A DNA stretch of 64,000 nt from Sinomicrobium weinanense (GTDB lineage: Bacteria; Bacteroidota; Bacteroidia; Flavobacteriales; Flavobacteriaceae): assembly GCF_018863395.1 (NCBI RefSeq), contig NZ_JAHKRR010000001.1:434001-498000 (forward strand), written 5' to 3'. A program made the translations under genes and the position numbers. Positions 35,157 to 42,197 of the stretch are shown here, piece after piece (the stretch's first letter is position 1; each line of letters opens with the position of its first letter). The notes beneath the pieces are model-generated. The model was given only the letters and a program-made list of their open reading frames with translations, was not told the DNA's origin and did no database searches.

Positions 35157-35371
35157 TATTTCTGAATTTTAAATAAAAATAAAGGCAAAATTATTAAATT
35201 GTACTGCTTTTAGGGCGAAAACATGATAAAATCGTTATGAAATAAACGTGAATAAATTTTAATCATTGAGTTGCAAAGATGGTTAAAATTTTTCATGTTA
35301 GAATGCAACGGTTCTATGTGTGCAACAAATTTTTTTCGCACGTTTTTCCCCGGGCAAAAAAAATCAAACAC

Positions 35372-37504
35372 ATGAAAAAAATAAGTGTTTTGCTTATTAT
35401 ATGTTTTATTTTTGCATCATCTTGTAAAAATGAAAATACTTCCAAAGTGACCAAAAACATTATCCCCCCTGTAGCGGAAAAGAAATCCACTTCCTTAAAA
35501 AAGCACGGTGACATACGAATAGACAATTACTTCTGGATGAACGAAAGGGACAACCCGGAAGTGATCGATTATCTCGAAAGGGAGAACGACTATAACGAAA
35601 AAATGACCGCCCATACGGCGCAATTACAGAAAGATCTTTTCGAGGAAATGAAATCGCGGATCAAGGAAGACGATGCATCTGTGCCTTATTTCTATAACGG
35701 CTACTGGTATATCACGAGATATGAGACCGGGAAAGACTATCCAGTATACACCCGCCGAAAAGGGTCGATAGATGCCGAAGAGGAGGTCCTTTTTGACTGT
35801 AATGAAATGGCCGAAGATCATTCCTACTTTCAACTGAAGGGTATCAACATCAGCCCTGATAATAAACTGGCGGCATTTGGTGTGGACACCGTGAGCAGAA
35901 GGATCTACACCATACAGGTAAAAAACCTCGAAACCGGAAAGATCTACCCCCTGGAGATCACCAACACTACGGGAGGAAGCACCTGGGGCAACGACAACAA
36001 AACCCTGTTCTACACTGCTAAAGACCCGAAGACCCTGCGTTCGGAAAAGATATACAGGCATGTCCTGGGATCGGAAAAGGCGGATGAGCTGGTATATCAC
36101 GAAGAGGACGATACCTTCAATGCTTTTGTCTACAAGAGCAAATCCAGGAAATACATCATTGCCGGGTCTGAAAGTACCCTTACTTCGGAATACAGTATGC
36201 TCAGCGCCGACAAACCGGAAGAGGAGTTTAAAGTCTTCCAGCCCAGGGTAAGGGGGCTGGAGTATAGCATAGCCCATTATGAGGATCATTTTTATATTGT
36301 GACCAATGCTGACGGAGCTACCAACTTTAAACTGATGAAAACTCCGGAAGACAAGACCGCGAAAGAACATTGGAAAGATGTGCTCTCCCACCGGGAAGAC
36401 GTATTGCTGGAAGATATTGATATTTTTAAGGATTTTCTCGTGGTCAGTGAACGGAGGGAAGGGCTCAATAAGATCCGTGTTATGCGATGGGATGACAGTG
36501 CCGACTATTACCTGCCCTTTGATAACGAGACCTATACGGCCTATACGACGGTCAATATAGAATTTGATACCGATACCCTGAGATATGGCTATAACTCGCT
36601 GACCACCCCGCTTTCTACCATAGATTTTAATATGGTAACGAAAGAGAAGGTGGTAAAAAAAGAACAGGAAGTACTGGGCGGTAAATTCGATAAGGGCAAT
36701 TATACCTCAGAAAGGATCTGGGCTACGGGCAGGGACGGTAAGAAAGTGCCCGTTTCGCTGGTGTACAGGAAAGGGATAAAGAAAGACGGAAGCAACCCCT
36801 TGCTGCTTTATGGATATGGTTCTTACGGAGCTACGATAGACCCTTATTTTTCAACAGTGAGGCTCAGCCTGCTCGACCGCGGTTTTATCTATGCAATAGC
36901 TCATATAAGAGGAGGGGAATACCTCGGAAGGCCCTGGTACGAAGACGGTAAGCTCCTCAAAAAGAAGAATACCTTTACCGATTTTGTCGATTGCTCCAAA
37001 TTCCTGATCCAAGAAAAATATACTTCTCCGCAACACCTATACGCCATGGGAGGTTCCGCAGGCGGATTGCTGATGGGAGCTGTGGTGAACATGGCCCCCG
37101 AACTTTACAACGGTGTTGTGGCAGCTGTGCCTTTTGTGGATGTGGTAACCACCATGCTGGATGAGTCCATACCGCTAACCACCGGGGAATATGACGAATG
37201 GGGAAATCCCAACGACAAGGAATATTACAACTATATAAAATCTTATTCGCCATACGATAATGTAAAGGCACAGGAATATCCCAACATGCTGGTAACCACC
37301 GGGTATCACGATTCCCAGGTGCAATACTGGGAGCCTGCAAAATGGGTGGCCAGGCTCAGAGAGCTGAAAACAGACGATAATATACTTCTTTTTCACACCA
37401 ATATGGATGCCGGACACAGTGGGGCATCGGGGCGTTTTGAAATGTTAAAAGAGGTTGCCGAAGAATACGCATTTCTGTTAGATTTGGAGGGAATTAAAGA
37501 GTAA
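35372..37504 (+). CDS. S9-family oligopeptidase (oligopeptidase B type) lipoprotein
   Basis: A 710-residue serine peptidase that cleaves short peptides. The start is the ATG at 35372, which begins a lipoprotein signal (MKKISVLLIICFIFASSC); in-frame codons upstream have no protein character. Residues about 40-430 form a seven-bladed propeller; the catalytic domain follows, with Ser562 in MGGSAGGLL, Asp647 in TGYHDSQV and His682 in AGHSGASGR. The PFVDVVTTMLDESIPLT segment and acidic residues after it suit cleavage after Arg/Lys. It is probably attached to the envelope. The cysteine-synthase-like gene begins 75 bases later, after an AT-rich hairpin. Confidence 0.93.
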   Translation: MKKISVLLIICFIFASSCKNENTSKVTKNIIPPVAEKKSTSLKKHGDIRIDNYFWMNERDNPEVIDYLERENDYNEKMTAHTAQLQKDLFEEMKSRIKEDDASVPYFYNGYWYITRYETGKDYPVYTRRKGSIDAEEEVLFDCNEMAEDHSYFQLKGINISPDNKLAAFGVDTVSRRIYTIQVKNLETGKIYPLEITNTTGGSTWGNDNKTLFYTAKDPKTLRSEKIYRHVLGSEKADELVYHEEDDTFNAFVYKSKSRKYIIAGSESTLTSEYSMLSADKPEEEFKVFQPRVRGLEYSIAHYEDHFYIVTNADGATNFKLMKTPEDKTAKEHWKDVLSHREDVLLEDIDIFKDFLVVSERREGLNKIRVMRWDDSADYYLPFDNETYTAYTTVNIEFDTDTLRYGYNSLTTPLSTIDFNMVTKEKVVKKEQEVLGGKFDKGNYTSERIWATGRDGKKVPVSLVYRKGIKKDGSNPLLLYGYGSYGATIDPYFSTVRLSLLDRGFIYAIAHIRGGEYLGRPWYEDGKLLKKKNTFTDFVDCSKFLIQEKYTSPQHLYAMGGSAGGLLMGAVVNMAPELYNGVVAAVPFVDVVTTMLDESIPLTTGEYDEWGNPNDKEYYNYIKSYSPYDNVKAQEYPNMLVTTGYHDSQVQYWEPAKWVARLRELKTDDNILLFHTNMDAGHSGASGRFEMLKEVAEEYAFLLDLEGIKE

Positions 37505-37518
37505 TCAAAAAAAATAAC

Positions 37519-37554
37519 TAAATTTGCTCGGTTTTTGGTTTTTTTAAAAAACCG
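37519..37554 (+). promoter_or_regulatory. Candidate -7 box and hairpin before the PLP synthase gene
   Basis: TAAATTTG (37519-37526) is an exact TAnnTTTG match. Just after it CGGTTTTT (37529-37536) and AAAAACCG (37547-37554) form a perfect 8-base inverted repeat with a 10-base T-rich loop. The hairpin could close the upstream peptidase transcript or form part of the leader of the next gene. No clear -33 box is seen. Confidence 0.35.
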
Positions 37555-37578
37555 ACTTTGGAACCAAACACATGTTAT

Positions 37579-38631
37579 ATGGAACAAAAGATTAAGGCTT
37601 ACAATAACGTATTAGAGCTTATCGGAAATACGCCACTTATAAAACTTAATACCATAACGGATTCCCTCAAAGGAAATTTTTATGCAAAAGTGGAAGCTCT
37701 GAATCCCGGTCACTCCACGAAAGACAGAATAGCCCTTTATATTATAGAACGAGCGGAGAAGAACGGAATATTAAAGCCAGGTGACACCATTATAGAAACA
37801 ACCTCCGGAAATACCGGGTTCAGTATCGCGATGGTGAGTATTGTAAAAGGATATGATTGTGTTCTGGCAGTAAGTTCTAAATCCTCGAAAGATAAAATAG
37901 ATATGCTCAGGTCCATGGGGGCCAAAGTATATGTGTGCCCGGCCCATGTCAGTGCTGACGATCCCCGTTCGTACTACCAGGTGGCCAGGCGTATGCATGA
38001 AGAAATGAAAGGATCGGTTTATATCAACCAGTATTTCAACGAGCTTAATATGGATGCCCACTACAATACTACGGGGCCCGAGATCTGGAAGCAGACCGGA
38101 GGTGCCATCACTCACCTGGTGGCATGTAGCGGAACCGGGGGCACAATATCCGGAACAGCCAGATACCTTAAAGAACAAGCTGAAAAGAACGGTACAAAAG
38201 TGAAAGTCATAGGAGTGGATGCCTATGGTTCCGTACTGAAAAAATATCACGAAACGGGAGAATTCGACTCCAAGGAAATATACCCTTACCGTATAGAAGG
38301 GCTCGGAAAAAATCTCATCCCCACAGCTACCGATTTCGATGTCATCGATAAATTTGTCAAGGTTACAGACGAAGAAAGTGCACATACCGCAAGAGAAATA
38401 TCCAAGACCGAAGGCCTTTTTGTAGGATATACCAGTGGTGCGGTAATGCAGGCTGTAAAACAACTTTCCGCACAGGGGGAATTTGACGAGAAAAGCAATG
38501 TCATTGTGATCTTCCCCGATCACGGTTCAAGATATATGAGTAAAATATACAGTGACGAATGGATGCGGGGACAAGGGTTCTTTGATAGTAAAAACATTGA
38601 AGAGGAACAGAAAATAGAATACATAAAGTAA
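37579..38631 (+). CDS. PLP-dependent synthase of the cysteine synthase/CBS family (cysteate synthase candidate)
   Basis: A 350-residue fold-type II PLP enzyme. PLP lysine Lys48 is in GHSTKDRIA, the substrate loop is TTSGNTG (74-80), the phosphate loop is GTGGT (185-189), and [14 protein letters not shown] lies near the C-terminus. The ATG at 37579 matches the usual N-terminus. It lacks a CBS regulatory domain and differs from CysK in several places. Next comes an alpha-oxoamine synthase on the same strand. In capnine-producing Bacteroidetes a synthase of this family makes cysteate and an oxoamine synthase then acylates it, so a cysteate synthase is the best guess. An ordinary cysteine synthase or cystathionine beta-synthase remains possible. 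Confidence 0.75.
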
Positions 38632-38641
38632 GAAATTTCTA

Positions 38642-38672
38642 AAAACATCCGCTAAAATGCGGATGTTTGTTT
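38642..38672 (+). terminator. Terminator after the PLP synthase gene
   Basis: AACATCCGC (38644-38652) and GCGGATGTT (38659-38667) form a perfect 9-base stem with a 6-base loop, followed by tgttt. It is 12 bases after the stop codon and separates the gene from the alpha-oxoamine synthase. Confidence 0.78.
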
Positions 38673-38789
38673 AAAACATGGGGAATAATAGTTCATATTT
38701 TCCCCGGGAGTTTTTGTTTTTGCATATTTAAAATATGTAATTTAGCCTGTTCGTGCTAAGGAAATTTTATTTTAAATTTTGAGATCTAC

Positions 38790-40049
38790 ATGAAGGATTT
38801 ATTTGACAGGATCATTGAAAATAAGGGACCATTGGGAAAGTGGGCATCACAAGCAGAAGGATACTTTGTATTTCCGAAACTGGAAGGCCCTATTTCCAAT
38901 AGAATGAAGTTCAACGGAAAAGAAGTTGTAACCTGGAGTATCAACGATTACCTGGGGCTGGCCAATCACCCCGAAGTACTGAAGGCAGATGCCGAGGCCG
39001 CTGCTGAACACGGAAGCGCTTACCCTATGGGGGCCAGGATGATGAGCGGGCATACCGATGTACACGAAAAACTCCAGAACGAACTGGCAGATTTCGTTAA
39101 GAAAGACGCAGCATATTTGCTGAATTTCGGCTACCAGGGAATGGTTTCGGCCATAGATGCCCTGGTGACCAAAGACGATATTATCGTTTATGATGTAGAT
39201 TCTCATGCCTGTATCATTGACGGCGTGCGTTTGCATATGGGAAAACGTTTTACCTTTATGCACAACGATATAGAGAGCCTGGAAAAAAACCTGGAAAGGG
39301 CCACTAAGATCGCCGAGCAGACCGGGGGAGGGATACTCGTAATCTCCGAAGGGGTGTTTGGTATGCGTGGCGAACAGGGAAAACTGAAAGAAATAGTAGC
39401 CCTGAAGAAAAAATATAAATTCCGTCTGCTTGTAGACGATGCCCACGGTTTCGGGACACTGGGAGCCACCGGTGCCGGAGCTGGGGAAGAGCAGGGAGTG
39501 CAGGACGATATAGATGTTTACTTTGCTACATTCGCCAAATCCATGGCGAGTATAGGCGCTTTTCTGGCCGGAGACAGGGAGATCATTGATTACCTGAAAT
39601 ACAACCTGCGTTCGCAGATGTTTGCCAAGTCCCTGCCTATGATATTCGTAAAAGGAGCGCTGAAACGGCTCGAAATGCTCCGTACCATGCCCGAACTCAA
39701 AGGCAAGCTGTGGGAAAACGTAAATGCCCTGCAAAACGGCCTCAAGGCGCGTGGGTTTAATATAGGCAGTACCAATACCTGTGTAACCCCGGTATATCTC
39801 AACGGAAGTATCCCGGAAGCCATGGCACTGGTAAAAGACCTCAGGGAAAACTACGGTATTTTCTGTTCGATCGTGGTGTATCCCGTGATCCCGAAAGGAC
39901 TGATACTGCTTAGGATGATCCCTACGTCTACACATACCCTGGAAGATGTAAACGAAACACTCGAAGCCTTTTCCGCCATCCGCGACCGGCTCGAAAACGG
40001 TACGTATAAAAGGCTTTCTGCTGCTGTTTCTGCGGCAATGGGAGAGTAA
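38790..40049 (+). CDS. Alpha-oxoamine synthase (serine palmitoyltransferase / cysteate acyltransferase type)
   Basis: A 419-residue fold-type I PLP enzyme of the family that joins an amino acid to an acyl thioester (KBL, BioF, ALAS, SPT). PLP lysine Lys250 is in ATFAKSMASIGAF; His139 in VDSHACIIDG stacks on the cofactor; Asp217 is in VDDAHGFGTLG. SINDYLGLANHPEV and MGARMMSGHTDVHEKLQ are typical. Enzymes of this length and type in Bacteroidetes make 3-ketosphinganine or, with cysteate, the capnine precursor. The preceding PLP synthase gene supports cysteate as co-substrate, though a terminator lies between them. A ketone biotin or glycine enzyme is less likely because neither pathway is nearby. 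Confidence 0.82.
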   Translation: MKDLFDRIIENKGPLGKWASQAEGYFVFPKLEGPISNRMKFNGKEVVTWSINDYLGLANHPEVLKADAEAAAEHGSAYPMGARMMSGHTDVHEKLQNELADFVKKDAAYLLNFGYQGMVSAIDALVTKDDIIVYDVDSHACIIDGVRLHMGKRFTFMHNDIESLEKNLERATKIAEQTGGGILVISEGVFGMRGEQGKLKEIVALKKKYKFRLLVDDAHGFGTLGATGAGAGEEQGVQDDIDVYFATFAKSMASIGAFLAGDREIIDYLKYNLRSQMFAKSLPMIFVKGALKRLEMLRTMPELKGKLWENVNALQNGLKARGFNIGSTNTCVTPVYLNGSIPEAMALVKDLRENYGIFCSIVVYPVIPKGLILLRMIPTSTHTLEDVNETLEAFSAIRDRLENGTYKRLSAAVSAAMGE

Positions 40050-40221: not shown

Positions 40222-40914
40222 ATGGAAACAAAGCGACATATGTATATTCGCGGGTATAAACACATATCCTATGAAGCTCCTGTCTTTTCCGGGGAGGAAA
40301 TGCAGAGCAGGAGCAGGAAATACTATAAATGGCTGGACAAACGCCGTTCTGTCAGGGAATTTTCCGAAAAACCCGTACCCCGCGAAGTTGTGGAGAATCT
40401 GATCAAAGCTGCTTCCACAGCCCCATCGGGAGCACATAAGCAACCGTGGACCTTTTGCGCTGTGTCTTCTCCCTCGTTGAAAAAAAAGATACGGGCTGCA
40501 GCAGAACAGAAAGAAAAGGAAAACTACGCGCACCGAATGAGTGAAAGCTGGAAAAAAGACCTGGAACCCCTGGCAACTGGCACCGACAAGCCTTTCCTGG
40601 AAACTGCGCCCTGGCTCATTGTGGTCTTTAAAAAAGTGCTGGACTATGGCCCCGATGGAGAAAAACGCAATAATTATTACGTAAACGAGTCTGTAGGAAT
40701 AGCCTGTGGTATGTTGATCACGGCGATACACAATGCCGGCCTCGTTACCCTTACCCATACGCCCAGCCCCATGAATTTCCTTGCCGGAATACTGGATAGG
40801 CCGGACAATGAAAGACCGTTCCTGTTATTGCCTGTGGGCTACTCCGCACAGGAAGTATTTGTCCCGGACCTGCAAAGGAAAGAACTGAGTGAAATGGCCG
40901 TATTTTACGAATAG
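40222..40914 (+). CDS. Iodotyrosine-deiodinase-like flavin nitroreductase
   Basis: A 230-residue FMN protein of the nitroreductase superfamily. It has KRRSVREF (FMN phosphate contact), STAPSGAHKQPW and the C-terminal LPVGYSAQEVFVPDLQRK. It matches the iodotyrosine deiodinase (IYD) branch closely, including TLTHTPSPM and YYVNESVGIACGML. The three side chains that hold the substrate amino acid in animal IYD, Glu-x3-Tyr and a Lys 21 residues later, are present as Glu98, Tyr102 and Lys123, and the lid segment is similar in length. The animal N-terminal membrane anchor is absent, so it is cytoplasmic. Expected activity is reductive removal of halogen from halotyrosine; the physiological need is unknown. 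Confidence 0.85.
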   Translation: METKRHMYIRGYKHISYEAPVFSGEEMQSRSRKYYKWLDKRRSVREFSEKPVPREVVENLIKAASTAPSGAHKQPWTFCAVSSPSLKKKIRAAAEQKEKENYAHRMSESWKKDLEPLATGTDKPFLETAPWLIVVFKKVLDYGPDGEKRNNYYVNESVGIACGMLITAIHNAGLVTLTHTPSPMNFLAGILDRPDNERPFLLLPVGYSAQEVFVPDLQRKELSEMAVFYE

Positions 40915-40963: not shown

Positions 40964-41548
40964 TCAATGAAGCTCAAAATGTACATCTACCACGACCTCC
41001 CGGGCTATTTTGTTGCGTACGATCCCCGGTATTTTAATGCCGAAATCCCCGGGGGTAGTTGTAAAAGTAGAGTTGAGGATTATTTTATCGCCTGTCTTTC
41101 TCAGTGTTGCCGGGATATTCATCTCCTTTGTGGTACCCCTGACCGTCAATTCTCCCGATATGTGATATTTCTCCGGACGATCGCCCAGAGAAGCAGCGTT
41201 AAACTCCTCAATACGTCCCCGGAAAGAAGCCTTGGGGTAGTCGTCGGACATCACGTAGTTTTCGTTGAAATGCTCTTCCATAAGTGCTACTTTGAACCGG
41301 AAGCTCTTTATCAGTACAAGTGCGGCGAACTCTCCGGTGGAGGCTTCTAATACGGCAGAGGCACTTTTTGTTCTGGCATCTACTTCCTCGAAAGAAGGTA
41401 CAGAGGCCTCGAAGTGTATTTCTCCCGTACGGGTGATGTATTTTTTCTGGGCTTGTAAAGATGGGATTGCCGATACCAGGAATATCGTCAGGAGACAGAT
41501 CAGTACACCGGAGTGTTTTAATCTTCTATGAATCCCTGGTCTACCCAT
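40964..41548 (-). CDS. YceI-family periplasmic protein
   Basis: A 194-residue protein with a signal peptide (residues 12-33, ending LQAQ) and the YceI/lipocalin-like barrel: GEIHFEASVPSFEEVDARTKS, STGEFAALVLIKSFRF, HFNENYVMSDDYPKASF and ISGELTVRGTTKEMNIPA. YceI proteins bind isoprenoids such as quinones in a closed barrel. No alternative start is available downstream before the signal, so the ATG at 41548 is used even though it overlaps the cytochrome gene by 31 bases. The overlap means tight co-expression with the cytochrome c lipoprotein. Confidence 0.9.
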   Translation of the reverse strand: MGRPGIHRRLKHSGVLICLLTIFLVSAIPSLQAQKKYITRTGEIHFEASVPSFEEVDARTKSASAVLEASTGEFAALVLIKSFRFKVALMEEHFNENYVMSDDYPKASFRGRIEEFNAASLGDRPEKYHISGELTVRGTTKEMNIPATLRKTGDKIILNSTFTTTPGDFGIKIPGIVRNKIAREVVVDVHFELH

Positions 41549-41898
41549 TCTTCGATAATATTTCTGTTCGCCTGGCTCATACGTCCCGTAGGAGGCATGG
41601 GGGAGCTGGTACTGTTTATCCGCGTCAGAAGCCCTCTGTTCTCAACAGCTTGTTTTACGGCGTTATAGGTAGTGAGGTGCATCGGCGCATTGTTTTGCGG
41701 GGGATCGGAATGGCAGCTCAGACAATTACTCTGTATGATGGGCTGCACATCATCGACATAGGTGACTTCTTCTCCCGGATCAGGATCGGGATCCGGGTCC
41801 GGATTAAGGTCGTCATCATTACTACTGGAGCAAGATATAGTGAGCAGCACTATAAAAAACGTACTACTTAAAACGGAAATAATACTCTTGGTCTTCAT
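41518..41898 (-). CDS. Membrane-anchored cytochrome c lipoprotein
   Basis: A 126-residue lipoprotein (lipobox at Cys23 in LLTISCSSS) with an Asp-Pro repeat linker (residues 31-41) and one haem c site CLSCH (59-63). The likely distal ligand is Met101 or Met107 in SPMPPTGRMS. The motif VDDVQPIIQSNCLSCHS is typical of small cytochromes tethered to the outer face of the membrane. It acts as an electron carrier. The start is the ATG at 41898, which gives the signal peptide. It overlaps the YceI gene, so electron transfer linked to a lipid-soluble quinone carrier is a plausible joint role. Maturation would need the CcsBA system, present at 58 kb. Confidence 0.85.
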   Translation of the reverse strand: MKTKSIISVLSSTFFIVLLTISCSSSNDDDLNPDPDPDPDPGEEVTYVDDVQPIIQSNCLSCHSDPPQNNAPMHLTTYNAVKQAVENRGLLTRINSTSSPMPPTGRMSQANRNIIEEWVDQGFIED

Positions 41899-42197
41899 AA
41901 TCTTGTAGTAGTTTTGGAGATTAATACAGTATGCGTTCATATATAAAATTAATAAAAAATTATGATTTATTATGTTTTTTATATATTAAAATTATCTATT
42001 TAACATTTAAAATTAAATAAACGTGTTGTTTTTATCTATGAAAAACCGGTGTAAAAGATTGTTTATAGTCAAAAAATAATGTGGTAAATAAGCGGGAATA
42101 AGGAGAGTTTTGTTTAATTTGTATATGCGAAAAATAGTGAACAAGGAACGAACTACCACTATTTGTAAATCTGGAAACCTTAACGGAAACAATTCGA
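41899..42197. other. AT-rich gene-free gap between divergent genes
   Basis: These 299 bases lie between the divergent cytochrome and cmk genes. They are very AT-rich (for example 41940-42010) and should contain promoters for both directions, but I see no exact TAnnTTTG box. Confidence 0.4.

Follow-up and report, generated by a model that had tools for sequence, protein, structure and literature searches.

In this study, a window of 64,000 nucleotides (the whole stretch of DNA that was analysed) was investigated, and we conclude that two neighbouring genes in it are almost certainly the capA-capB sulfonolipid biosynthesis locus of a Sinomicrobium-like flavobacterium. The capA-capB module is already known and this pair is a sound, ordinary example of it, from which sulfonolipid production by the bacterium is predicted. 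In the introduction of PMC9304779, sulfonolipids are connected with gliding, with the development of choanoflagellates and with inflammation of the gut. The features of the locus, in window coordinates, are as follows.

35369 to 37504: gene of an S9 prolyl oligopeptidase, directly upstream of capA.
37519 to 37526, forward strand: TAAATTTG, an exact match to TAnnTTTG, 52 bases ahead of the start codon of capA and identical in two Sinomicrobium relatives (L015 and L016).
37579 to 38631, forward strand: capA, 350 aa, predicted cysteate synthase, a PLP enzyme of the cysteine-synthase/CBS fold with Lys48.
38643 to 38668, forward strand: hairpin, candidate intrinsic terminator of capA, 10 pairs, -16 kcal/mol, z -6.5.
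38738 to 38745, forward strand: TAATTTAG, candidate capB promoter element with one mismatch to TAnnTTTG, conserved in L015 and L016.
38790 to 40049, forward strand: capB/sulA, 419 aa, predicted cysteate-C-fatty acyltransferase, an alpha-oxoamine synthase with the PLP lysine Lys250 and a SulA-type Lys280.

The family membership of both proteins and their catalytic lysines can be read directly from the sequence. The initial annotation had described a cysteine-synthase-like gene followed on the forward strand by an alpha-oxoamine synthase gene, which the reading frames and the domains bear out: protein 1 carries a PALP domain (PF00291, E 1.3e-79) and protein 2 an aminotransferase I/II domain (PF00155, E 8.7e-38) in Pfam, and these matches exclude chance reading frames. 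An in-frame TTG at 37558 is an alternative capA start that would add 7 aa. Both of the PLP lysines that had been named are present, Lys48 within PGHSTK48DR and Lys250 within FATFAK250SMA. The proposal that the pair may make the sulfonolipid head group was strengthened by comparing both proteins with the characterised enzymes. Protein 1 scored 641.7 bits against the NCBIfam model CysteaSynCapA (NF053679), above the curated cut-off of 600, and protein 2, which reached no NCBIfam cut-off, matched PDB 28EH, 'Cysteate-C-fatty acyltransferase', with 741 bits and Alistipes finegoldii SulA (PDB 7U7H) with 583 bits, in both cases end to end. Its matches in the PDB comparison to serine palmitoyltransferase (238 bits), KBL (199 bits) and BioF (5VNX, 148 bits) were weaker. 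According to excerpts of PMC9304779, Lys281, which is an alanine in Spt, is the one clear active-site difference of SulA, and the K281A variant of SulA is inactive. Lys280 of protein 2 aligns with Lys281, and a lysine was found at this position in all 89 CapB homologues examined, which came from 58 class genomes (of 132 with CapB) and 31 loci. The three best paralogues in the window's genome have Asn, Ala and Thr there. In this genome, a 1230-aa open frame also contains an alpha-oxoamine synthase domain (L097, G000:C25:145229-146329) in which Ala takes the place of CapB Lys280. By analogy with the characterised orthologues, from which the substrates and products of both enzymes are taken, CapA would convert O-phosphoserine and sulfite, which we assume to be its second substrate, into L-cysteate, a reductase encoded elsewhere in the genome would lead to capnine, and N-acylation of capnine would give the sulfonolipid that the strain presumably contains.

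The two genes are separated by 158 bases, and for this gap the initial annotation had proposed a terminator at 38642-38672 and separate control of the genes. The hairpin itself is real, at 38643-38668: none of 200 shuffles was as stable, and its stem core is unchanged in L015 and L016, with the outer A-T pairs differing in both and the loop in one. Its role as a terminator is less clear, since it is followed by a weak T run (TTTGTTTAAAA) and was not among the six sites of the terminator scan, all of which were on the reverse strand (3.2 expected). Hairpins also recur in the gaps of other genera with different sequences; 16 of 22 capA-capB gaps contained a simple hairpin at least as stable as -13 kcal/mol (even hairpin lengths only), and a strict terminator rule was satisfied by 14 of 28 gaps as opposed to 2 of 1400 shuffles that preserved base composition only. 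The window's gap fails this strict rule, probably because the weak T run is counted into the stem. TAnnTTTG, which we take to be the Bacteroidota -7 promoter consensus, occurred exactly in 21 of 28 gaps, the window not being among them, compared with 153 of 1400 shuffles of the same kind, many of the gap rows being close relatives and not independent. The recurring hairpins together with the Bacteroidota-type motif make it plausible, and overall likely, that capA and capB are separate transcription units, in which the capA transcript would end at the hairpin and capB would be transcribed from its own promoter. A single operon, in which the hairpin would act as an attenuator, stabilise an RNA end or be incidental, is the less probable arrangement but a serious one: the genes share a strand across a gap of 158 bases, the consensus scan and the strict rule both pass over the hairpin with its weak T run, and the window's gap lacks the exact promoter motif. 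The recurrence of hairpins and motifs among relatives stands against it. Separate control thus gains from the relatives what the window by itself supports less well.

Protein 1 is very unlikely to be a common cysteine synthase or cystathionine beta-synthase that lies beside capB by accident. The fold is the same and protein 1 also matches the corresponding models, but it remained below their cut-offs, with 373.4 bits against the cystathionine beta-synthase model TIGR01137 (cut-off 510.25) and 265.4 bits against the CysK model (cut-off 350.95), and the CysM cut-off in NCBIfam was likewise missed. Its best solved relative is PDB 9K2P with 500.8 bits, followed by a CBS with 264 bits, and Pfam found only the PALP domain in it, the C-terminal CBS domains being absent. 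On the basis of the model cut-offs and the PDB scores, the CysK/CBS identity was dropped. In a tree of 37 rows that comprised CapA orthologues, CBS-type and CysK/CysM proteins, protein 1 fell within a CapA clade of 13 rows with a support of 99/99, although the 14-row group that also contains the protein of genome G142 had a support of only 79/43, and the base of the CapA tree is unsure because of one long-branch row, L267. The nearest other group was the CBS type, a point in favour of the alternative, with CysK/CysM more distant; the phylogeny thus puts protein 1 with the CapA orthologues and apart from both. The window's genome moreover encodes a separate CysM (485 bits, cut-off 413) and a 451-aa CBS-domain protein, which scored 491 of 510.25 bits on the CBS model and 465.5 of 600 on the CapA model, so that capA is a third, separate member of the family. 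Even more improbable is that protein 2 is a serine palmitoyltransferase and that the locus makes ordinary sphingolipids, because, although it belongs to the same superfamily and scored 289.7 bits on the CFB serine palmitoyltransferase model NF047600, the cut-off of that model is 640, the CapB/SulA matches of 583-741 bits far exceed the 238 bits for SPT, and Lys280 stands where SPT has Ala. The SPT/KBL identity was dropped on the same kinds of scores, KBL with its 199 bits included.

The closest named relatives of the CapA-CapB pair are found in Sinomicrobium oceani and Sinomicrobium sp., which match it at 92-93% for CapA and about 95% for CapB. The idea that the two genes would be neighbours in other bacteria held in part. 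Among the best 80 named CapA loci, 31 have capB at most 6 kb from capA, the gap being 114-263 bases in 24 of these. The other 49, nearly all titled as Flavobacterium and some truncated at contig ends, lack capB within that distance, which means that the pairing is not general. A homologue of the S9 peptidase was found in 79 of the 80 loci (31/31 with capB and 48/49 without it). Outside the window's family, the conserved neighbours of CapB in 57 class loci were only housekeeping or common-looking genes, with no N-acyltransferase among them; by eye, they were CoaBC-like, RecN-like, DapA-like, universal stress protein-like and DNA ligase-like, with a few unnamed. Downstream of capB, the window encodes a nitroreductase-family protein (40222-40914) that weakly resembles BluB (66.8 bits, cut-off 150). 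It also encodes, on the reverse strand, a YceI-like protein and a small protein (40964-41548 and 41518-41940) whose frames overlap by about 30 bases, the small protein showing a cytochrome-c match whose 23 bits fall below the cut-off of 27.

No reductase was found beside the pair in the window. In 7 of the 31 paired loci (L020, L023, L028, L036, L043, L057 and L071), capA and capB are separated by the gene of a short-chain dehydrogenase (SDR), a candidate 3-ketocapnine reductase. Four of these seven, from Robertkochia and Joostella, also have a Cupin_8/JmjC-like protein, encoded between capA and the SDR; two proteins of each kind were examined with Pfam. Their positions include the following.

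L057 7237-8082, L071 7106-7948 and L036 7311-8168: SDR between capA and capB.
L020 7058-7918, L023 7050-7913, L028 7053-7919 and L043 7060-7905: Cupin_8/JmjC-like protein.

The SDR of L057 scored 160 bits on the KdsR model, below the cut-off of 400. In the PDB, the Cupin_8/JmjC-like protein of L023 has matches to JMJD5 and FIH, and such proteins are possibly hydroxylases of the sulfonolipid chains. A 36% identical Cupin_8/JmjC-like protein is encoded elsewhere in the window's genome (C23:570129-570947). The window's genome encodes no clear orthologue of the SDRs of Robertkochia, Joostella and two other loci; its two best hits to the Joostella SDR are only 31% and 34% identical. This genome has 26 adh_short matches over the cut-off, the best of its scores on the KdsR model being 264 bits (cut-off 400), and its reductase would presumably be found among proteins encoded away from the pair. 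In C. gleum and A. finegoldii, too, the reductase is not encoded next to the other two genes, according to the available text of PMC11211663.

We further searched 149 genomes of the window's class for CapA, CapB, ComA, the archaeal cysteate synthase and ComB. The CapB family was found in 132 of them at E 1e-100 or better, with non-self identities of about 56-78% and at least four genomes having fragmentary matches only. CapA was above the cut-off in four genomes, and two further proteins (G021, 546 bits, and G142, 508 bits), both encoded next to capB, were counted as CapA orthologues, which gives six genomes, all with CapB. Most of the other genomes have a CBS-type match of about 440-490 bits, usually within an open frame at least 450 aa long; six matches without CBS domains (325-329 aa, L252-L257) clustered in the tree with the CBS type and hence were not counted as CapA. 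Homologues of the phosphosulfolactate synthase ComA were present in 127 and those of ComB in 124 of the 149 genomes, and the archaeal cysteate synthase in two, G141 and G087. The one ComA that was tested matched PDB 1U83 (196 bits), presumably the Bacillus phosphosulfolactate synthase, and 1QWG (172 bits). Among the 132 CapB carriers, 122 have ComA, 118 of these with ComB, and six have CapA; CapA and ComA never occurred together, and neither ComA nor ComB was found in the window's genome or the other five CapA genomes. G087 has both ComA and the archaeal enzyme, which in G141 is the only source found. ComB without ComA was seen in G136 and G148 (69% and 86% complete), and G051 (99% complete) has CapB without any of these sources. 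In 12 of the 17 CapB-negative genomes, all three cysteate sources are missing (one of the 12 has ComB), while five have ComA (G029, G036, G052, G100 and G143, two being 69-72% complete). Treating genomes that are actually related as independent, Fisher's test gave p 1.6e-11 for CapB against the presence of at least one of the three sources and p 3e-8 for CapA against ComA within the CapB carriers. Joint absence is seen in G040 (f41) and G147 (f44), whose families are positive apart from them, and this argues for a functional link; G100 (f22) and G143 (f38), where ComA and ComB persist although CapB is missing, argue against a strict one. At least 14 same-contig ComA-CapB pairs were picked by eye; three were within 10 kb (G030, G071 and G090), a further six within about 52 kb and five more than 100 kb apart. 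A TPR-like protein precedes ComA in 33 of 35 loci. In L233, L238 and other loci, ComA is often followed by proteins that, by eye, look like rhodanese, shikimate dehydrogenase or DUF368.

The simplest account of these distributions would be that CapB needs cysteate and that Bacteroidia supply it in at least three ways. On gene content, we lean towards the view that most of the class obtain the cysteate of their sulfonolipids by the ComA route, which is otherwise known from coenzyme M, CapA being one of at least three interchangeable sources. In this route, ComA would act on phosphoenolpyruvate and sulfite, and ComB, a sulfolactate dehydrogenase and an aminotransferase would then lead to cysteate; CapA would replace ComA/ComB in the window's order (5/5 sampled genomes) and in one lineage outside it, and the archaeal cysteate synthase would do so in another lineage. 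Against this reading, ComA is seldom near CapB, five ComA genomes are without CapB, and ComA/ComB could serve other sulfonates. The consulted parts of PMC10191378 give two cysteate sources, CapA and, in Alistipes and Odoribacter, an archaeal-type cysteate synthase. Labilibaculum euxinus is reported to be rich in capnine lipids (24-33%), with a CapB identity of 61% but a best CapA match that is only 32% identical (PMC12927429, in part); this is in line with another cysteate source, although the authors call the match capA. The portions of PMC6508672 and PMC5167729 at hand name no cysteate source, the former describing the halocapnine pathway of Salinibacter as not well defined. Among the papers listed in our literature searches, and in passages of PMC12330013, we found none linking ComA or sulfolactate to sulfonolipids, a link that may already be in print. 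If the ComA route does feed CapB, a coenzyme M enzyme would gain a role in Bacteroidia, where we found no account of one, and sulfonolipid capacity would be nearly general in the class and not confined to CapA genomes. CapA-based sulfonolipid surveys would miss most of the CapB carriers of this sample. Loose E-value surveys, such as that at 1e-20 in the accessible text of PMC11211663, would probably let in serine palmitoyltransferases and ordinary cysteine synthases as well, since these match the window's proteins at about 1e-69 and about 1e-57, respectively.

Compared with known systems, the window's genome differs from the 127 and 124 class genomes with homologues of ComA and ComB of coenzyme M biosynthesis (PDB 1QWG), as it has neither. 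Unlike in the window, none of the Flavobacterium loci compared has a capB at 6 kb or less from capA; according to excerpts of PMC9304779, Fjoh_2419 of Flavobacterium johnsoniae (Vences-Guzman 2021) is a close relative of SulA, and its deletion eliminated sulfonolipid. Alistipes finegoldii SulA (PMC9304779, in part; 7U7H) shares with the window's CapB a full-length match of 583 bits, the PLP lysine and Lys281/Lys280, but in Alistipes an archaeal-type cysteate synthase is reported in place of CapA (PMC10191378, in part). The same two enzyme families as in the window are represented by CapA and CapB of Capnocytophaga ochracea (Liu et al. 2022), whose accessions in the available part of PMC12927429, C7M8J5/ACU93374.1 and C7M8J6/ACU93375.1, are consecutive, which suggests that capA and capB are adjacent there too. 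The window's pair comes from a different genus, and for it an intergenic hairpin and a candidate promoter are described.
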